From Hondaea fermentalgiana (lineage: Eukaryota; Sar; Bigyra; Thraustochytrida; Thraustochytriidae), in contig NPFB01000040.1 in the NCBI GenBank assembly GCA_014084085.1, positions 365,699-429,698 of the forward strand: DNA of 64,000 bases. Direction: 5' to 3'. Positions 9,714-59,058 of this stretch are shown one piece after another. The translations under genes and the position numbers were made by a program. The notes under the pieces are model-generated. The model was not told the DNA's origin, did not search any database, and worked only from the letters and a program-made list of their open reading frames with translations. Within the stretch, counting starts at the first letter, position 1, and each line of letters begins with the position of its first letter.

Positions 9714-10810
9714 CCACTGGCAGCGACGCGGTGGCGGCTGGCTTGGCGTGGCGTGGCGTGGCGTGGCGCCGCGACAGTCTCTGACTGCCGGCGAGGCGAG
9801 CTTTTCTCGCAGCAGCACGGCTCGCTTGCCTCCGCACGCTGGCTCGCTCCGCTGTCTGTCTGTGCAGCGTGTCTGCCCCTTCTTCCTCCCTCCCGGCCGA
9901 CAACTGCCTCGCCGGACGTAGAGCGGGCTGGGATCCCACCGCGCGGCATTTCACACCTGGCTTGTCCTCTGCTGCTGCAGCTGCAGACTTCTCCGGTCCA
10001 TCGCGGATCATCGCGGATCATCGCGGTGTGCGTCGCGTCGCGTCGCCGAGCTGAGCTGAGCTCGGCTGAGCGCCCGGGCGCCGCGCTGAGCTCGCAAGCG
10101 GAGGCAAAGCCTCCCCTTCTCTCTCCTCTACCGCGCCTACCGGGCCAATAGTTAGGGAAAAGCTGGCTGCACGAGCACTCGCCTCGACTTTGACTTTACA
10201 CGACAAGGAGCAGGAGAGCGAACAAAGTGACGTGAGCGCGGTGCGCCTGCTCCGGCCGGCCAGCCTCCTGGCCAACCACCCAGCCAGCCAAGCAGCCAGA
10301 GTAGTTTCCTTTTCCTCGTGTCCTCTTTTTCTGGTTGCTCCTCTCCCCGGTCCCCGCGCCGTCACTCCCCGAGAAGACGAGGCCCCTTGAGCCGCGCGAG
10401 GGAGCACGAGAGAGTCCAAGTAGCCCAGAACAGACGGCGGACCAGGCATTCATCAATTCATCTAATCCATCTTTCCATCCAACCCGACCCTGCCGACCCG
10501 AGCAGACGGGCAGCAGGAGAGGAGAGGAGCATCGAGGCCGCGGCGCAACTCTAGCGCGCCCACGGCTCCCCCCGCCGCTCTCCCTTCCCCCGCGCCGGAC
10601 GCTCCTCTTTTCTGCGGCACGCCCTTCAACTTTTTTTGTCTGGCTTGGTTATCCCGCACGCGCAAAAATCCTCACAAGCAAGCAAGCAAGCAAGCGCGTG
10701 AGCGAGCGCGCGAGTGAGCAAGGCCGGGTGGTGCCCTCGTGCACGCTCGCCTCGCCCCCCCCGCGCCCCGTTTCGCGAGTCCGCCGGCCACGCAAACAAA
10801 CGAACAAGTG

Positions 10811-13800
10811 ATGACGCAACACAGTGACCATGGCTCCGGCAAGAGGACTAAAAAGGACCTGGTCGTTCAAGGCTTCACGGAGCTGCTCAGTGGCATCGTC
10901 AACGGCCTGCTCATGCTCAGCTTTTGCTATGTGTTTTCGAGCCTCATCTTCGGCACCGATGAAGGCCTAGCACCCTACATCCCCGTTGGCGCCGCACAGC
11001 AAATCACCTCGGCAGCCATCCTCGGCCTCACCTTTGCCACCTACAGCGATTCAGCCGTCACCATCGCAGGCCCGGACATTAACCCGACCATTTTCTTCGC
11101 CACCGCCGCAGAAGTCATCCGCCAAAATGTCGACCAAAACCACCCCAACGCTTCCGACGATGAGCGCACACAAATCGTGCTCACCACCGTACTCATCACC
11201 ATCGTTTTTGGCACCGCTCTGGTTTCGGTGCTCTTCTACTCTCTCGGTCACTTTCGCCTCACGCGCGTCGTACAGTTCGTGCCGGCTGCTGTCCTCGGTG
11301 GTTTTCTCGCTGCTGTCGGCGTCATCGTCATCATCAAAGCTGTAAAATCCACGGTCGGCGACGAGCTCCCCCACCATCTCGACTACTGGGAGTTCTGGGC
11401 CCTATTGGCGCCCTCTGTGCCCATTGGCGTCGCGCTTTACTGCACCAAGCGTTTCCACATCGGTGCGCCCATCGTCACCATCCCGTGTCTGCTTTTTGGA
11501 CCTTTTATCCTCTTTTACATTGTCGTCTTTGGACTCGGCTACAACCTCGACGACGTTCGCGAGATGAATCTTTGTCACGACCGTGGCCATGGCCTGGAGT
11601 GCGGCTGGCTCTACGACAAGTATGACGCTGTCCTCATCTCGGACCAGTGGAAGTTCAGCTTTGGGCAATCCGATCTCATTGACTGGAGCGCTTTCACAGC
11701 CGCGCTTCCTAACCTCTTCATCATGCTCATCATTGTCACGCTTGACTCGCTCCTCAAGATTGCTGGTACCAAGAAAAAACTCGGTATTACCGATCTCGAC
11801 TACGATCATGAAATGCAGCTCGGCGGCAAAGCTCACTTTTTTCTCGTCTTTCTCGTCGGCGCACCCGGATACGGTCAGCTCAAGTTCAATGCGCTCAACT
11901 CAGGCATCATTCGTAACACGAAAAGTCGTTGGCCTGGCGTCATTGCAGGCCTCTTCAACGCCGGTCTCTGGTTCGCTGGTTTCCCACTCATCAACTACCT
12001 TCCTCGGTTCTTCATCGGCGCCCTTCTCATCTACGCCGGTCTTGGCTTTATTGTTGAGAACCTCATCGACACGCTCATTCAGGATCGCTTCTCCTTGCTC
12101 GAGTACCTCACCGTCTGGGCCATTGTGATCCTCAGTCAGACAACCTCGCTCCTTGTGGCAGTCATTGTCGGCGTCATGGCCTCCTTTGTGCTCTTTGCCG
12201 TGCAGTATTCCAAGACTGGCGTTGTCAAAGCGGTCCTCAGCGGATCCGACTTTCAGAGCTCCGTCGTCCGCAGCTCGCAAGAGGATGCCAAGCTCGAGCA
12301 TCTCAGCTCCCAGGTCGTCATCATCAAGCTCAAACGATACATTTTCTTCGGGTCCGCAAACCAAATTACAGAGCTCGTATGGTCCATTCTCGACGACGTG
12401 GCGGCTGCCTTTGAAGACGAAGATGACGAAGAGGCCGACTTGATGAGCAAACGCTCCATTGCGCCTCATGACGGTCTTTTGCACACCCTCGTCTTTGATT
12501 TTGAAGACGTCTATGGCATCGACTTTACCGCGTGTGGGACCCTCATGGAGCTTTTGCAGCAGCTCATCCAGGCGACTACAACAGACTCGAACTCCATCAC
12601 CGCCGAGTCCTCAATGCCGAATTTTAACGAGGACCAAGACGATGAGCCACCACACAGCTTTGTGTCGCGCAACCCTATTCTGCGCCGTTTTCGCCGCGCC
12701 CGACGGGACAACGACCAAGCCAAGGGTTTCACCATCCTCTTCACCGGCATGTCTACCAAGGTATACCGTCGCCTTCACATGGAGGGCGTGATTCAACTGT
12801 TACACAAATCCGGATACCCGGTGGGACCAACACCAGCCGAGGTTGATCAAGTGCTCCCCAAGGTCCTTGCCATGCCCCGCGCGCATCGTCTCGTCACATA
12901 CATGCGCAAGATTCTCGGCCCCCTTCGCCCTCGCCGAACCAAGGCGCCCAAGGGTGAGCCCCAGGAAACTGAGAAAGACTTTCTCGACGACGATGAGAGC
13001 CCCAGCGACATGAACGACATTGGCGCCCAGATGCCTCAATCGAACTCGAACGATATTGCAAGCGAACCTGGTGGCCAGGAACTTAACCTGACCACCCCTG
13101 ACTACTACGCCAATGGCGATTTTTCGCCTGCACTTCGCCGCGTCTTTCCTACGCTCGATCTCGCCATGGAATGGGTTGAAGAGAGACTTCTCGAGCGCGC
13201 AAGCACGATTCGTCAGCGTTGGTTGGTGTTTTCCGAATCCTTTCGCCGCCTGCACGAGCTTGCTCGGCTCAAGGCCCAGCACGAGCCTTTTGAGCACATT
13301 CTCGGCGGCCATCTTGGTGACTCGGTCTGGAAATATGTGCAAACCATTCGGGTCCCCAGCGGCGCGCGCCTTCTCACCGCCGGCCAGGTCAACCCTCACC
13401 TCTTTTTGCTTCAGCATGGTCGTCTTACCTCGTACATGGTGCGTAATGACGACTCCATGATGCGTCTTCAGAGTCACCGGCGTGGAGCCTTCATCAACGA
13501 GGACGCACTCTTTGTCGAGTATCCAGTCTCACACACGGTCATTGCTGACGAAGACTGCACGCTTCTTGCGCTCTCGCGCGAGAGTCTCAAAACTCTCGAG
13601 ATGCACAAGCCCGAGGTTGCCTTTGAAATCCATCGCAACGTCCTGCGGCTCACGGCTCGTGCGCGAAACCGTCTGGCCCGCGAGCTCGATGTTGTGGACC
13701 ATTGGTCGCTCTTCGAGCGCCAGGCCGTCGAGGATGATCCCATCCAGACGGCGTACATGGCGTCTGCGACGCGCGCCTCATCGATTCATCACCGTTCGTC

Positions 13801-15754
13801 TTCGCACCACTTTGCGCCCACCCAACCCATGCTCATCGGAACATCGCAGTCGCGTAGCTCGAGCTTTTTCGGCGGCCATCACTCGCACCATCATGGCCAC
13901 CAGTCTAGCTTCCGCCTCAGCCATCATTCTTTCAGCGGTCGCGACCACTCGGCCACACCGCCGCCGCTTTCGCTGTCTCCGTCTCAAAAGCCAAAGTCAC
14001 AGCAGCAACAACAGCCGCCTCATAGCGCCTTTGACTTGGAGTCCCCGATTCCTGAGAGCTCCCGCGCGGATCTTGACCAAGCCCGTGACGTGCCATCCAT
14101 CACAGTGGAAGAGCAGCAGGCGCAGCAGAATCAGATGCAGCAGCAGCAGCAGCAGCAGAAGAAGAAGAAACAATTGCAGCAGCAAGGCCAGCCTCAAGAT
14201 CCACAGACCCACTTGCGTTCCACTTCGCGCAAGGTCGGACGCGCCATCATGAACGAAGCTGCTGCAGCGTACAAAAAGGAAGCTGCGCGCAAGGAAAAGT
14301 TTCTCAAGTTTGACACAAGTCACTCCAAGACCGTGCCTCCTTTGCGATCGGAAGCTCCCGGCGCGCAAGACTATGGGCTCGAGGAAATGGTCCAACGAAT
14401 TGCAAACGACGATCCGTCCAGCAGCAAAGGCCGTAACCGTAGTGGCAGTAGCCGCGGTAATGGCCGCAACAACAGTGGTGCTGGGGACGGAAGCTACGCG
14501 CGCCGACATTCGGAGCGCAACAGAATGCCGTCGCGCACATCGAGCATGCATCACGATCGTTCGCTTTCGTTCCGCCCAGACCTGCGCCACGATAGTTTTC
14601 TTCACGCGCCACCCTGTGACGAGGGCCCTACGGACTCTGTTGATGCAAATGAGACGCGGCGCAACATCCATTTGTCTCGCATCCAAGAGCTTGATGCCGT
14701 TGCTTGTTTCAAACGAGCGGCTTCGAATCGCTTCCATGCCCGAGGCAAGCGACCTGGCTCCGATCCCGAGAGGGACGGTGCACCAACGGGTTCGTTCGCG
14801 AACGCGGCTCCCGATTTAAGTAGTGATGACCTCGAGGCGAATGGCGCGCAAGCGCAGGGCCAACTTGACGCCAGAATCAACCGCGCTGCGGGCGCCGCCC
14901 GCCAGCAACAGCAACAACGGATGCAAGCTAGCGAGGACGCGCAGCCCGCGCTAGCCGGTTTGTTCTCCACTTCTCTTTCGCGCTCACGACTCCGACAAAC
15001 GCTCATGGATATGGGACACTTTCCCAGCGATCATGAGCTCGACAACATCATGTCCGCAAATGGATGCGCCAGTTCGGCATCCATCTCGGAGAAGCAGTTC
15101 CTTGGCATCGTGCGCGCGCTGAGCCTCGAGGAGCTCACGGACGAGCAAATTTATGGGTTTGCGTTGTTTTTTCAGCGCCACGCCCAGCGTCTCACCGCCG
15201 GTGAACGTGCAGTGCTCCCGTCGACAATTCCTGTGCTGCCAGACATGGTTCTCACGGTCCAGGGTCTCAAGGAGTTCCTGGACGATATCGGCCACGTGGA
15301 GGATCCGCTACGACTTGAAAAAATGTTCGCTGAATGGTCTGATTTCTCTGTGCCCTCGACGAATGGACAAAAGCCCTTTCGAGCTCTTCATTTTGCAAGT
15401 CTCTGCAGCATGATGGCTTGGCATATTCACGCCGAGAAGCTCTTTGAAGAGGTTGCGCAGGACTTTGGCCAGCTCACTGTCGGAGGGACGGCAGACGAGC
15501 TCGTCTACGCGGAGGACATTGTCCATGTCATGTCCACGCTCAACGCCCCCTGCACCTGGGATGAAGCCACGGAAATGGTCTTTGAGGCGGATCTTTCGGC
15601 CAACGGTGGCGTTTCTTACGAGGATCTTGTCGAGACCCTCACAACCGTTTTTGACGCAGAGATTGAGCCGCAGCTCGAGCAACTTAACCAGGACATTCTC
15701 GACGCGGATCAGGTCATCGTCCGCTCGCTGACAAACTTTCACAAAAAGGGATAA
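10811..15754 (+). CDS. Giant SulP-family transporter with STAS, cyclic-nucleotide-binding-like and degenerate EF-hand-like regions
   Basis: 1647 residues. The ATG at 10811 follows an AACAAGTG context; the frame upstream has only a GTG. Residues about 20-490 form a multi-pass SulP/SLC26-type membrane domain (GFTELLSGIVNG, TIAGPDINPTIFF, TLDSLLKIAGTKKKLG). A STAS domain follows at about 500-690, with an inserted acidic linker. Residues about 835-955 resemble a cNMP-binding beta-roll, but the phosphate cassette lacks its usual GE...R pattern. A low-complexity stretch with His-rich and Gln/Lys-rich runs follows (about 1000-1400). The last 250 residues contain EF-hand-like helices, with a partly conserved loop near the end (ADLSANGGVSYEDL). 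The SulP-STAS-cNMP order matches fungal Vsb1/YGR125W-type proteins, implicated in vacuolar basic amino-acid storage, so an endomembrane location is plausible. The substrate is not established. Intronless. Confidence 0.85.
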   Translation: MTQHSDHGSGKRTKKDLVVQGFTELLSGIVNGLLMLSFCYVFSSLIFGTDEGLAPYIPVGAAQQITSAAILGLTFATYSDSAVTIAGPDINPTIFFATAAEVIRQNVDQNHPNASDDERTQIVLTTVLITIVFGTALVSVLFYSLGHFRLTRVVQFVPAAVLGGFLAAVGVIVIIKAVKSTVGDELPHHLDYWEFWALLAPSVPIGVALYCTKRFHIGAPIVTIPCLLFGPFILFYIVVFGLGYNLDDVREMNLCHDRGHGLECGWLYDKYDAVLISDQWKFSFGQSDLIDWSAFTAALPNLFIMLIIVTLDSLLKIAGTKKKLGITDLDYDHEMQLGGKAHFFLVFLVGAPGYGQLKFNALNSGIIRNTKSRWPGVIAGLFNAGLWFAGFPLINYLPRFFIGALLIYAGLGFIVENLIDTLIQDRFSLLEYLTVWAIVILSQTTSLLVAVIVGVMASFVLFAVQYSKTGVVKAVLSGSDFQSSVVRSSQEDAKLEHLSSQVVIIKLKRYIFFGSANQITELVWSILDDVAAAFEDEDDEEADLMSKRSIAPHDGLLHTLVFDFEDVYGIDFTACGTLMELLQQLIQATTTDSNSITAESSMPNFNEDQDDEPPHSFVSRNPILRRFRRARRDNDQAKGFTILFTGMSTKVYRRLHMEGVIQLLHKSGYPVGPTPAEVDQVLPKVLAMPRAHRLVTYMRKILGPLRPRRTKAPKGEPQETEKDFLDDDESPSDMNDIGAQMPQSNSNDIASEPGGQELNLTTPDYYANGDFSPALRRVFPTLDLAMEWVEERLLERASTIRQRWLVFSESFRRLHELARLKAQHEPFEHILGGHLGDSVWKYVQTIRVPSGARLLTAGQVNPHLFLLQHGRLTSYMVRNDDSMMRLQSHRRGAFINEDALFVEYPVSHTVIADEDCTLLALSRESLKTLEMHKPEVAFEIHRNVLRLTARARNRLARELDVVDHWSLFERQAVEDDPIQTAYMASATRASSIHHRSSSHHFAPTQPMLIGTSQSRSSSFFGGHHSHHHGHQSSFRLSHHSFSGRDHSATPPPLSLSPSQKPKSQQQQQPPHSAFDLESPIPESSRADLDQARDVPSITVEEQQAQQNQMQQQQQQQKKKKQLQQQGQPQDPQTHLRSTSRKVGRAIMNEAAAAYKKEAARKEKFLKFDTSHSKTVPPLRSEAPGAQDYGLEEMVQRIANDDPSSSKGRNRSGSSRGNGRNNSGAGDGSYARRHSERNRMPSRTSSMHHDRSLSFRPDLRHDSFLHAPPCDEGPTDSVDANETRRNIHLSRIQELDAVACFKRAASNRFHARGKRPGSDPERDGAPTGSFANAAPDLSSDDLEANGAQAQGQLDARINRAAGAARQQQQQRMQASEDAQPALAGLFSTSLSRSRLRQTLMDMGHFPSDHELDNIMSANGCASSASISEKQFLGIVRALSLEELTDEQIYGFALFFQRHAQRLTAGERAVLPSTIPVLPDMVLTVQGLKEFLDDIGHVEDPLRLEKMFAEWSDFSVPSTNGQKPFRALHFASLCSMMAWHIHAEKLFEEVAQDFGQLTVGGTADELVYAEDIVHVMSTLNAPCTWDEATEMVFEADLSANGGVSYEDLVETLTTVFDAEIEPQLEQLNQDILDADQVIVRSLTNFHKKG

Positions 15755-21209: not shown

Positions 21210-22397
21210 TTACTTGGTTTGGTCCAGTGCTTCCTGTAGGAGAACACGAAAATCAGAAGCCCCGGTTCCATATGCTACCTTGCTCAGGAACGCAAGGACA
21301 ACTCGCTGGTGAAAAGCTCGAAAAGCATGGAGTGCATTGATCGCAGACTTGTACTCCTTGTGGATGGCCTCAATCTCACGCAGAGAGCCGCAGGCATTGA
21401 GTCGTTCGCGAAAATCAATGACACACTCGCGATGTTTGCTCGGAATGTAATCGAGCATTTCGTTCGCAAATGCTCCGGCGCTCTTGACGTGATGAACGTC
21501 GAGCGCGGCGTCAATGAGGAAAAACATTGCCGTCTGACCCGCGCTTGCACCTTTGGCAACCACGACCGAAGGCGGGCCCTCCCGGCGCGCAAACACAACC
21601 CCGTTGGGGTTGAAGCCTTGCATATAGGGACGGTAGGCCTCGAACGAGTCCGGCTCCAGGCGCTCGACCATCACCTTGAAAATCTTGATACAGTTCAGAA
21701 GACCGCCACGTACTTTGCGCAACGTCGACTTGAGAGCTTCCATGTCGCCGTCTCTGACGTGCTCCGGCGCCTGCAAAAGATCAAACATGGCGTCAGCCAT
21801 GTCGCCATGCATGGCAGCAGTCAAATGAAAGGCCTCCTCAGCCGTCTCACCCGACATGCTCGCCGACGTCTCCAGGTTGTCGAGACAGACGGGACCACTC
21901 GGGTCCCGGAGCTTCCATTTGAAGGTGTCATAAGTACAAGAGCAGCAGATCCCAGGGAGCCCGAGTCGCTCATTCACAATCATAAAGGGTTCTGCGAGCT
22001 CGACGGGAATTTCGTCAGAAGCCTCCCACGGTTCCTTGGAAGGACCGTTTACAATCACATGCACGATGAACCCAAAAACGACATGCGCGCGAATGAGAAA
22101 CCGGCGCTCGCAGCACCGCAAAAACACCTCGACACTCTCCGCATTCTCACTCTGCGCTGCCACGGCCCTGAAGATTTCCTCACGGTCTGCGCCAATCTCA
22201 GGAAGCTTCTTCATGAGCGCTTCCCACCCTGCAAACGCGGACCCAGGCAGGGTTTCCGGCGTGTCGAGCGGTAGGAAGCCTCCTCGCAAGTCGAGCTCCC
22301 AGCGCGCCGCGAGCGCGGCACGTGCACGGTCCGCTGTCGCCGGGACTCGTGGCGATTCTGGCACTCCAGCTTGAACTTCTTCAGGCAACGTAGACAT
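21210..22397 (-). CDS. IDO: Indoleamine 2,3-dioxygenase family protein
   Basis: 395 residues, one exon. Family features run in order: an N-terminal helical region with GFLPLDTPETLPGSAF and IGADREEIF, the RAHVVFGFIVHVIVNG helix, LPGICCSCTYDTFKW, and the KGASAGQTAMFF loop corresponding to the mammalian GGSAGQS loop over the heme. The last helix carries the probable proximal heme ligand H363 in FRAFHQRVV. IDO enzymes are cytosolic heme dioxygenases that cleave L-tryptophan to N-formylkynurenine, the first step toward kynurenine and, in many eukaryotes, NAD. Its substrate affinity cannot be judged from sequence. The ATG at 22397 is the only good start. It is convergent with syntaxin and divergent from the TPR-2OG oxygenase. 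Confidence 0.9.
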   Translation of the reverse strand: MSTLPEEVQAGVPESPRVPATADRARAALAARWELDLRGGFLPLDTPETLPGSAFAGWEALMKKLPEIGADREEIFRAVAAQSENAESVEVFLRCCERRFLIRAHVVFGFIVHVIVNGPSKEPWEASDEIPVELAEPFMIVNERLGLPGICCSCTYDTFKWKLRDPSGPVCLDNLETSASMSGETAEEAFHLTAAMHGDMADAMFDLLQAPEHVRDGDMEALKSTLRKVRGGLLNCIKIFKVMVERLEPDSFEAYRPYMQGFNPNGVVFARREGPPSVVVAKGASAGQTAMFFLIDAALDVHHVKSAGAFANEMLDYIPSKHRECVIDFRERLNACGSLREIEAIHKEYKSAINALHAFRAFHQRVVLAFLSKVAYGTGASDFRVLLQEALDQTK

Positions 22398-55517: not shown

Positions 55518-57560
55518 CTAGCAGGGCCGGTCGTCTGCGGCGCCGCGTCGCGCGGCGTGCGTGGGCGAGGTCGCGATGCGCGAGGTCGTGGCGCGCACAG
55601 CGGCTACGCGCACGCTTTGCAGTCCCCGAGGAAAGACGCGGAAGCGCGTTTGCTGCAGGGCTCGCTTGGCAAAGGCGACCCCGAACACGAGCGGGGGAGA
55701 CGCTCTTGCGAGCACAAAGGCCACGAGCAGCGGCGCACGAGGCATGGCCTCGCCCACTCGAGCGCAGAAACGGATGGAGTCTTTCGGGATGAGCGGCAAG
55801 GCAGCATTGGCCAGCTGGGAAACGGTGTTTGCATTGTCCTGAAAGTTTGACGCGGCGCAGGTTTCCCAGTGCGCTAAAATAGTGGCCGGAGTCTCGTCGA
55901 GACTGTCGACATTCCGGTAAAGCTCGAAACTGAGAGCACTCATGACCACACAAACCAACGCAACAAATGCGAAGCGCGAAGTCGCGAGAGAAAGCCGTAG
56001 CAGGGCACGACTTTGAGTGGCTGCACCAGGCCTCTTGACGTGACCCGAGTGGATTGCTTGAATCAGACCTCGAAAGGTCATAAACAGCCATCCATAGGCT
56101 GAGGCGGCCACAATAGCGCTCGCCAAAAGAGGGCCATCGATAAGAAGATGGGCTTGCGCTGGCGTCCGAAGCTGGGGCCCGCAGCTATACCGATACCTAA
56201 GCGCAGAGACGAGAGGTAATATGGAACCGAACATTGGATTCTCCCCTTGCTTGACGCGGTACGCGCTCGAAAGAACGAGCAGCGGATCCACCTGACTTGC
56301 CAAAGTGGCTCCGGCTAATGTCGCGGGTATGACAATGACAAAAACTGTCCTTGACGTCAAGAAAAACAGCGATGGCCGGTATGATTGCACGGTCACAGCA
56401 GCATGAACTTGACAACATAATTTCACCAAGGCAAAAGCCAAACAGCTCACAAAAACTTGGAGAACATGCTCATTGAGGAGCGCTACCTTGCAGAATGGAT
56501 GCCCTCCAAGGCTTTCGAAGCGCGACACTGTGTCATGACCCGCGCATCTAACGTCGTAGCCCAGAAAGAGTGCAATGCTGACATCAAGAACGGCAATCAC
56601 CACCGCCAAACATGCCATGTACATTTCCGTTGCGTCAAGCTGATATCGTGGTTTGCGCGGGATGCGCCGCGCCGCACGGCGTCGTGCAATTCCGGAGGAT
56701 ATTATAAAGACATTGAGCGGCAAGCTCAAGAGACCGGGTACCCAGTGCGCCATCCACAGCATTCTGTCTTGGCGGTCGGTGAGTACGATTTGATCTGGAC
56801 AGGGGAGCTCGCATGCTGCGAAAAAGGAGGCAGGGGAGCCATCGAGATTTGAGCCTTGAACAGCGGCAAAATCTGCAACGGCAGAGTAAGTTCGTGTGCG
56901 ATATGGCCAGGGGCACTGCGCCTCGCTGGACGTATCGTTCGCAGCATGCAAACTCATGCCCGACTCTTCCTCCTGAAAGACATTAGCGCACTCGACAAGA
57001 ATCTCATGAGATATATACGTGTTGCTTGCAGCAAATGCGTCCTCGGTTCGCATTTCAGCAAAGAAAGTATCGAAGAGGAGGCTGTTGGCTTCCAGACTTG
57101 AGTCACAGTGCACGTCGAGCGGGTACTCCGCATTTGCGCAATAGTCTTGCAAAAGTCTGTGGCATGATGATCGACATATCTTGCGAGGTTCCTTTGAAGC
57201 CTTTGCACAAGGCATAAAATTTGCATAGCAGCTGACTGTCTTGAAGGCATTCGCGCACGAAACATCGTCGCCTGCCACTTCGTCTACGCGCGCACGTATT
57301 GCGTCCGATTCGGCTTGTGCATCGGCATCGGCGTTGAGAAACACAAGCGTCTCTTGACCGAGAACATCTGCGCAAAAATGATCTGATGGTAGTGAGTCGC
57401 AGTGCGCATCGAGGTATTCGCGACTTTCTCGCGCCAGACTTGAAGAAGCGAGCCTGGAGGTTTCTCTCGGCGGAGCTGATACCCTGCTACTTTCTGCCAA
57501 GGCGTCGGAGGCCTGTACAACAACAATAATGCCAAGGTACAAAATACCGAGGCGCATCAT
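55518..57560 (-). CDS. Frizzled-like receptor: cysteine-rich domain plus seven membrane spans
   Basis: 680 residues; the first of two adjacent ATGs, at 57560, starts a signal peptide (MMRLGILYLGIIVVVQ). A Cys-rich domain of FZ type follows at about 54-152, with Cys at 54, 63, 102, 111, 118, 129, 133, 141 and 152. The FZ core C-x8-CYxNFMPC-x10-C-x3-C-x7-C is clear (SCYANFMPCAKASK, ICRSSCHRLLQDYC). About 100 residues of further ectodomain with an N-glycosylation site precede seven hydrophobic spans at about 268-290, 312-335, 363-385, 398-420, 474-498, 523-545 and 608-632. A loop cysteine at C357 (HPFC) could bridge to the cysteine pair in the long loop before TM5. Similar Frizzled/Smoothened-like receptors are known from amoebozoans, so no Wnt ligand is implied. 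The C-terminal tail is short and basic, without a KTxxxW motif. Intronless. Confidence 0.8.
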   Translation of the reverse strand: MMRLGILYLGIIVVVQASDALAESSRVSAPPRETSRLASSSLARESREYLDAHCDSLPSDHFCADVLGQETLVFLNADADAQAESDAIRARVDEVAGDDVSCANAFKTVSCYANFMPCAKASKEPRKICRSSCHRLLQDYCANAEYPLDVHCDSSLEANSLLFDTFFAEMRTEDAFAASNTYISHEILVECANVFQEEESGMSLHAANDTSSEAQCPWPYRTRTYSAVADFAAVQGSNLDGSPASFFAACELPCPDQIVLTDRQDRMLWMAHWVPGLLSLPLNVFIISSGIARRRAARRIPRKPRYQLDATEMYMACLAVVIAVLDVSIALFLGYDVRCAGHDTVSRFESLGGHPFCKVALLNEHVLQVFVSCLAFALVKLCCQVHAAVTVQSYRPSLFFLTSRTVFVIVIPATLAGATLASQVDPLLVLSSAYRVKQGENPMFGSILPLVSALRYRYSCGPQLRTPAQAHLLIDGPLLASAIVAASAYGWLFMTFRGLIQAIHSGHVKRPGAATQSRALLRLSLATSRFAFVALVCVVMSALSFELYRNVDSLDETPATILAHWETCAASNFQDNANTVSQLANAALPLIPKDSIRFCARVGEAMPRAPLLVAFVLARASPPLVFGVAFAKRALQQTRFRVFPRGLQSVRVAAVRATTSRIATSPTHAARRGAADDRPC

Positions 57561-59058
57561 CGCTGATTGCAAGTATAAGCGGTCCCCGCCACGCGGACTC
57601 GAATGGGGTTTACATTTCCCATGTCGACGTAGAGGAAGCAACAGCCGTGGCCGACAGTGCTTTTAGGTGTTGTGTTGGCCTTGCCTTTACTGTTAAAATG
57701 TAAAACGTTTTTTTTTCATTAATCTTCTGCGGGAGTTCACAGTGAAAGCAGGAAGAGCAAGAAAAGAAGAAAGAAAAAAAGGAGGATGCAGATCTGGCGA
57801 TCGACGTGGGCCACAAACGATTGCTGCCGTCTTTGCGAACCGGAAGAGGGTCTTTGGACAAGCAAGTTCGCTTGGCTCAGGGCTTGAGGCTTCATCGCGA
57901 AACACCACACCGTCCCTCACTCACTCGCTCACTTCGTATCACGCATGACTGTCCGTTGCTTTTTTTTTTTTTAATATGCTCTCACATTTGAGAGGCTCAA
58001 GGCGCTCAAGGCTTTTGCTTGCCCGTTTGATAATGATCCAGCGGCCAAGGCGTATACACGTGGCTTGGACAATGAATGTGTTATTGTGTGTTGGTTGACA
58101 GCGCCAGAGTGCCCGGCAAAGGAGAATGAATGTCTTTACTGTTAGGTAACAGTGAGCCAGCCAGCCAGCCAGCCAGCCTGCGGTGACGTGACGCTGAACT
58201 TGAAATTTGGGGCGTAACGGCAATTTGAGAATAAGTGACAGCAGAAGCGACCAACCCACACAGAACGAAAGCAACGTCAAATTCTATCAGCCAAGGCCCT
58301 CGTCCGAGCCAAGGTTTGGCCTGACGCCCAGGCTTGGCCTTGGGCCTCGATGGTCTGCACTCAAGCCAACATTTAGGGCAGCTGAATGTTGTACTGACAG
58401 GTAAGGTTCGCAAATTGAAAAAGGAAGCAAGTGCAAAGATCGAAGGACACGAAACGACAAGGTGCCGGCGCACGCAAGCGCGTTCGCCAAGCTGTTCGGC
58501 CACGTGAACGTCCCTACTACCAAATCGAGCAGTTTCGTTTTACGTCGTGTGCAAACGAAACTGGTACATACTGGTCATTTATCGCTTGGGCGGCGGCAGC
58601 AAGAAGAAGAACACGAGTTCTCGGGCAGTAGTGTTTGGGTGACACCGGCATTAGCAAAGGCGGCCAAACTAGGTTGCCTAGGTCTGATCTTTGATGCAAC
58701 ATTTAGGGTAAGCAGGGGTTCGATAGACGAGTGACGAAAGGAAAGAGACAGCAGGGCAAGTCCAAAGAATGTCCGTCCCGATGACGTTCGCTTACTTTCT
58801 TGCCAGGCTCTACCTATGTCACAGGAAATCTTCCTCCTTACTTCTTTGCGTGAGTGTCCCACGACAGGTATTGGTAAACGAAACAAAACGTCGCTCAAGG
58901 TGGAGCAAAAGATCGTTAAAAACAAATGGAACGAGGTGCAGATTGCTTGCTTCCGTGTGCGCGTGTGCTTGTCCAGAATGAGTCGAGGGCTTTGGAGAAA
59001 GATCCAGAGGGCGCGCTGACTGGGTTGCTTGCTTCTTTTTAGGTACTTCGAAGATGAC
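57561..59058. other. 1.5 kb intergenic region
   Basis: Promoter side of the Frizzled-like gene and 3' side of AIP1, both minus. Holds a T-run at about 57959-57972, a (CCAG)n array at about 58151-58179 just after the short inverted repeat CTGTTAGGTAACAG, and two unrelated short direct repeats of CAACATTTAGGG. A plus-strand frame at 58462-58734 was considered but shows no family. Confidence 0.5.

Follow-up and report, generated by a model that had tools for sequence, protein, structure and literature searches.

On the minus strand of a 64,000-nucleotide stretch from the thraustochytrid Hondaea fermentalgiana (contig NPFB01000040.1, positions 365,699 to 429,698; hereafter, the window), positions 55518..57560 hold what is near certain to be a real, mis-annotated receptor gene, one of a family, that encodes a Frizzled (FZ)-type cysteine-rich domain (CRD) and seven membrane spans. 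We read this small thraustochytrid family as very divergent class F-like receptors, i.e., relatives of Frizzled and Smoothened, and put the probability of this reading at roughly 0.62. The Frizzled-like character of the receptor is well supported by its FZ-type CRD, its hinge followed by seven spans, the G-protein-coupled receptor (GPCR) fold of the models, and its unicellular host, whereas its placement within the Frizzled class is no more than probable; a first-pass annotation that had named a Frizzled-like receptor in a unicellular eukaryote was right about the host and the likeness, and its class assignment stands at that lower strength. Because neither a match to PF01534, the Pfam model of the Frizzled seven-transmembrane (7TM) domain, nor a KTxxxW motif was found, we do not assign the receptor to the Frizzled family but treat it as one that works in a Frizzled-like way.

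The gene is complete in a single frame, running from an ATGATG start at 57560 to a stop at 55518-55520 and reading as 680 residues with no internal stop, as the first-pass annotation had it, although the strand was left unstated there. The plus-strand frame over the same interval is full of stops, and upstream extension of the coding frame reaches only a TTG at 57641. All features given below by window coordinates lie on the minus strand unless stated otherwise. The first 22 residues (57495..57560) form a segment that we call signal-peptide-like, the leader having been recognized from hydropathy alone (1.94 at residues 4-22; 19-residue window, cut 1.0) with no signal-peptide predictor; this agrees with the signal peptide originally proposed. 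Seven hydrophobic spans follow (residues 274-292, 315-333, 365-383, 398-416, 478-496, 530-548, and 611-629), again as claimed, and they coincide with seven long helices in an AlphaFold2 model of the protein. Together with matches to GPCR folds, these spans and helices define the 7TM domain at residues 262-642 (55635..56777), after which a short cytoplasmic tail (residues 643-680; 55521..55634) completes the protein. The tail had been described as free of the Dishevelled-binding motif KTxxxW, and a search after transmembrane helix 7 (TM7) found the motif in none of the six family members. A chance open frame was rejected, given that the paralogues share the layout and that a deposited protein is cut from the same gene, and a bacterial or viral origin was rejected on account of the 934-kb contig and of neighbours with eukaryotic domains.

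At least six genes with both a CRD and a 7TM part are present in the H. fermentalgiana genome (36.0 Mb in 238 contigs), the search having used Pfam Fz, the window gene, and then its relatives, such that all counts are lower bounds. Besides the window gene, they comprise L022 on the same contig (C172), a tandem pair on contig C203 (L010, with C203a and C203b as its members), and a tandem pair on contig C184 (L011); in L010 a single intron interrupts the frame once most of the CRD has been encoded, and the exons were joined manually. The paralogues are only 15-28% identical to the window gene. Relatives beyond the genome are scarce: in a protein search with 1416 candidates scored, the only three matches at E values up to 10 were P0005 and the two proteins deposited for the C203 pair. 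P0005 has 585 residues, shares 65% identity with C203a across the region used as query, is the only relative found outside the genome, and has no Pfam match at E values up to 1. One of the three is named "FZ domain-containing protein" in UniRef. A profile of the six members returned only the deposited H. fermentalgiana protein from the protein database (7998 candidates scored, chosen for the most shared words).

The CRD spans residues 54-152, from C54 to C152 (57105..57401), and on the sequence evidence of Pfam Fz, profile matches to the Protein Data Bank (PDB), and cysteine arrangement, we take its FZ type as established. Pfam Fz matches the window gene over residues 61-144 (E value of 2.4e-5; 25.3 bits) and recognizes all six members, with E values from 9.2e-6 to 0.0049 (the weakest, in L022), the scores seen falling below the curated cut-off of 32.1 bits. 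Nine of the ten FZ cysteines can be placed in the window protein (C54, C63, C102, C111, C118, C129, C133, C141, and C152; the tenth is uncertain), which bears out the FZ cysteine order previously noted, and the gaps between the third and seventh cysteines (8, 6, 10, and 3 residues) are identical to those of FZD8. Seven of the nine (C54, C63, C102, C111, C118, C133, and C141) occur in every family member and C129 in five, and the C152 column holds a cysteine in the window gene only. When the family profile was compared with the PDB, 16 of the 21 sequences listed at E values up to 10 were FZ-type CRDs (ROR2, sFRP3, FZD8, FZD5, and FZD10); only ROR2 (2.2e-5) fell under 0.001, and the five non-FZ sequences had E values of 0.93 or more. 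In the model of the window gene, most of the CRD has a predicted local distance difference test (pLDDT) score under 50.

FZ domains also occur elsewhere in this genome. At L001 (1282-3216; contig C194, ~11.0-13.0 kb), an FZ-type CRD (Fz E value of 1.6e-6) is fused to a NIPA-type magnesium transporter (Mg_trans_NIPA E value of 1.4e-25), an architecture of which we know no other instance. There are two further FZ-domain frames, L003 (contig C31, ~102.7 kb, minus strand) and L002/L013 (contig C1, ~63.2 kb); one of these has a strong hydrophobic span near its end and, by eye, a coiled-coil-like tail, and the other was read as 319 residues, without its 3' continuation.

Between the CRD and the 7TM domain lies a linker and hinge (residues 216-254; 56799..56915) of the form C216 ... 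C250ELPC254P, which is matched to the hinge of Smoothened by hhalign for the family and in the C203b model. C250 is present in all six members, and C216 and C254 are present in five. Outside the CRD there are eight cysteines, namely, C216, C250, C254, C339, C357, C460, C568, and C599, of which five are found in every member; among the latter are C568 and C599, a pair in the third extracellular loop (ECL3) between TM6 and TM7 (55764..55859). The eight fit the four disulfide bonds that we take to make up the Smoothened plan (linker-hinge, hinge-ECL1, TM3-ECL2, and ECL3). L022 has a serine in place of the second hinge cysteine and a leucine in place of the ECL1 cysteine, both of which are kept in the other five members, suggesting that this gene lost the two partners of the proposed hinge-ECL1 bond together, the bonds themselves being predicted. 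C216 is unaligned in L022, where a nearby cysteine may be its equivalent.

The predicted structure of one paralogue, C203b, points to class F. The AlphaFold2 model of C203b (predicted template-modeling score of 0.66) matched Smoothened ahead of all other GPCRs listed, with the hinge included in the match; among the matches listed, class F receptors occupied ranks 1-16 (Foldseek) and 1-21 (VIA), and Smoothened stood 2.4 Z units above the best non-class-F receptor listed, at a structural-alignment identity of about 10%. By sequence, the hinge is again where the family aligns with Smoothened: with the linker included, hhalign against Smoothened alone scored 37.7, the best of 18 comparisons (39% probability; E value of 3.1e-4 for a single pair), the local match lying in the hinge. 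Shuffled Smoothened sequences (450; maximum, 34.3) and other open frames (119; maximum, 23.1) all stayed below this score, as did reversed profiles. We treat this sequence match as a lead, not as proof.

Several results weigh against class F membership, and some of them favour a different account, in which a mobile FZ-type CRD was joined to the 7TM domain of some other or lineage-specific GPCR family, yielding a receptor with the look of a Frizzled only. The match to PF01534 that the first-pass annotation had named as a check on the 7TM part did not materialize in any of the six members at E values up to 10, and across the whole genome, PF01534 recognizes one locus only, a cAMP-receptor-like gene on contig C92. 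With the linker, hhalign against FZD1, FZD4, and FZD7 profiles gave noise, and the pooled FZD and Smoothened profile gave only 18.2, also noise; without the linker, the comparison with Smoothened drops to noise (23.4). The family scored 30.3 against its own reversed profile, and when members were left out one at a time, the Smoothened score was 21.6-33.3 in six of seven runs and 42.3 in the seventh, with the local match shifting from the hinge to TM5-TM6/ECL3 in two of the seven. A phmmer search of the PDB with the L022 hinge returned nothing at E values up to 10. As for the structures, the window-gene model is poor (mean pLDDT of 54), and although Smoothened came first in both of its lists, its Z score tied with those of the class A receptors LGR4 and FSHR, so that the structural case for class F is clear for the C203b model and equivocal for the gene first annotated. 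Even in the C203b list, the FZD rows tie with TSHR, and the many Smoothened rows represent few proteins, whose ranks are not independent votes. The same genome carries FZ on other membrane proteins (the NIPA-type transporter and another frame that has a single strong hydrophobic span), which also suits a mobile domain. We nevertheless regard such a fusion as the less likely account: the C203b model favours Smoothened by its margin in Z score, with the hinge aligned, and the cysteines of the hinge, ECL1, and ECL3 are arranged as in Smoothened, an agreement not required of a random fusion.

Neither phmmer with the window gene (no Frizzled chains) nor hmmsearch with the family 7TM profile (no receptors) found a counterpart in the PDB. 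The Dicty_CAR model (PF05462) matches none of the six members at E values up to 10, although it does match another gene of the genome, and hhalign without the linker gave noise against class F, the beta-2 adrenergic receptor, and the C92 protein; the family scored 16.1, again noise, against the latter, whereas the pairing of class F with the C92 protein, which served as positive control, gave 90.7%. The C92 locus itself (L009, 18101-18763, minus strand) matches Dicty_CAR (E value of 2.1e-18), PF01534 (E value of 2.8e-12), and also 7tm_2; it was rejected as a true Frizzled, having Dicty_CAR as its best family and no Fz match. It is, like the present family, a 7TM receptor of H. fermentalgiana, differing in that it matches PF01534 and lacks Fz, and any stramenopile survey based on the number of PF01534 matches should take heed of it.

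If the family is indeed class F-like, its distribution calls for explanation. Two papers describe Frizzled-class genes from animals, fungi, and amoebozoans and hold the class to have originated in that line (PMC3251606, PMC12716839); Frizzled receptors are also reported from a chytrid fungus. The family could then have arisen by horizontal gain from an amoebozoan, a fungus, or an animal, with duplication and fast change thereafter, in which case it would still belong to class F, though without having been inherited through the stramenopiles. In line with such a gain, third-position GC content (GC3) is lower in the six genes (0.56-0.62) than in seven window neighbours (0.63-0.79), but this difference is small and says nothing on origin, and six genes spread over three contigs at such low identity to the window gene imply that any transfer is old; we judge a transfer to be highly improbable. 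Tentatively, and with less confidence than we attach to class F likeness itself, we suggest that the class F combination of CRD, hinge, and 7TM domain may have been joined when stramenopiles had not yet diverged from the line of animals, fungi, and amoebae, close to the last common ancestor of eukaryotes, and that thraustochytrids may keep a fast-changing, G-protein branch of it without Wnt or Dishevelled. If this is true, lipid or sterol sensing of the Smoothened/Frizzled type is far older than the Wnt and Hedgehog pathways.

The receptor is hidden in the databases by its gene model. A protein search with the window gene (7997 candidates scored, again those with the most shared words) gave a single match at E values of 0.001 or less, FCC1311_044872 of H. 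fermentalgiana, which has 432 residues and is 100% identical to the window gene over the matched part. It begins at an internal methionine downstream of the CRD and has residues 385-463 (56172..56408), i.e., TM4 and ECL2 with P412, R455, and C460, spliced out as a GT-AG "intron"; the deposited protein therefore lacks the CRD and one membrane span. The removed stretch is open, in frame, and of the same composition as the rest (third-position GC of 0.57, compared with 0.568 for the whole gene), and its identity to the five paralogues, 18-31%, is like that of the flanks (10-32%), P412, R455, C460, and P462 being invariant across the six members. From these comparisons, the stretch is most likely coding, and because the paralogues align through it, the deposited model is probably wrong. 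That the cell in fact makes the six-span splice form and does not translate the 680-residue frame as one protein, as the in-frame stretch with its GT and AG ends might allow, seems to us scarcely credible, since all five paralogues encode that stretch with its invariant residues and the deposited start discards a CRD that the other five genes carry. The probable error in this model could help to explain why no one has noticed the receptor. Two other relatives known as deposited or predicted sequences, P0005 and the C203a protein (P0003), are also without most of the CRD, indicating either that start predictions cannot be trusted in this family or that some products have no CRD.

For a receptor of this kind, we envisage a CRD that would face the outside, held on the bundle by the hinge, and would bind an outside ligand. 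Smoothened CRDs bind sterols, and Frizzled CRDs bind lipid-modified Wnts; by analogy, the most likely kind of ligand would be a sterol or other lipid, or else a protein that carries a lipid. Together, CRD and hinge would then move on the 7TM bundle, which would activate one of the heterotrimeric G proteins of the cell. Signalling, if any, would run through G proteins, and canonical docking of Dishevelled at KTxxxW is not expected. There are 11 G-alpha loci over the Pfam cut-off, on contigs C26, C70, C91, C203, C114, C163, and C58, making G-protein coupling the likely output. These loci are partly clustered, with three each on C26 and C91, and one of the C26 copies has an internal TGA. A search of the genome for the Wnt family gave no matches, but its controls were silent too. 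The single DIX locus found (L036; contig C175, 17051-17287, minus strand; E value of 7.2e-10 in the genome search) was rejected as a Dishevelled, its Pfam matches at E values up to 1 including DIX without DEP or PDZ. An earlier paper already describes DIX proteins in the SAR group (PMC12077222).

Among known systems, Smoothened is the closest: it shares the FZ-type CRD, the CxxxC hinge, the 7TM domain, and cysteines at the places expected for the hinge-ECL1, TM3-ECL2, and ECL3 bonds, and it is the best structural match of C203b and ranks first, in a tie, for the window gene, but the identity in structural alignment is very low and the family, unlike Smoothened, has no PF01534 match. FZD1-10 share the cysteine order and gaps of the CRD and the CxxxC hinge, yet they differ from the family in KTxxxW, which the latter lacks, and in giving only noise by hhalign; no Wnt gene was found here, with the silent controls just mentioned. 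A W x3 W motif at TM1 after the CxxxC hinge appears in four of seven family rows and in FZD7 and FZD1, but not in Smoothened (FZD4 was compared without its hinge). The dictyostelid Fsl/Fsc receptors (amoebozoan family 5), compared here by their description, resemble the family in their lineage-specific expansion and are often below Pfam thresholds and often without a CRD or KTxxxW; they differ in having been found through IPR000539 and BLASTp, whereas the thraustochytrid family is missed by the Frizzled 7TM model (PMC10445921). A missed Pfam match is therefore not decisive. Likewise, because only FslJ and FslK are said to have KTxxxW in Dictyostelium discoideum (PMC10445921), its absence does not set the thraustochytrid family apart. 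A 2025 survey found no Frizzled class in 23 choanoflagellates and four members, possibly contaminants, in the corallochytrean Syssomonas (PMC12716839).

Frizzled-model matches in stramenopiles, to which H. seosinensis belongs, are not new as such, PF01534 matches from that species being in print. In the passages available, its GPCR genes match both PF05462 and PF01534, and a CRD goes unmentioned there (PMC5447177); as the C92 locus illustrates, a gene that matches both models may be cAMP-receptor-like. In the portions of the literature on thraustochytrids, Labyrinthulomycetes, stramenopiles, and oomycetes that were covered, we found no report of a CRD-7TM receptor, which is not proof that none exists. 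A stramenopile family with CRD, hinge, and 7TM domain would either move the origin of this design back in the direction of the eukaryotic root or demonstrate that it can evolve more than once; current views may underestimate the age, or the mobility, of the Frizzled-type design. The family also offers a protist in which to study a Frizzled-type receptor apart from the known Wnt pathway.

The neighbours of the receptor gene in the window are ordinary and include a tetrahydrofolate dehydrogenase, a WD40 protein, and a serine/threonine phosphatase. Elsewhere in the window, a long plus-strand frame (10739-15751) encodes a protein with both a sulfate permease and a cyclic-nucleotide-binding domain, and the minus strand at 21210-22397 carries an indoleamine 2,3-dioxygenase-like gene (E value of 2.2e-42).
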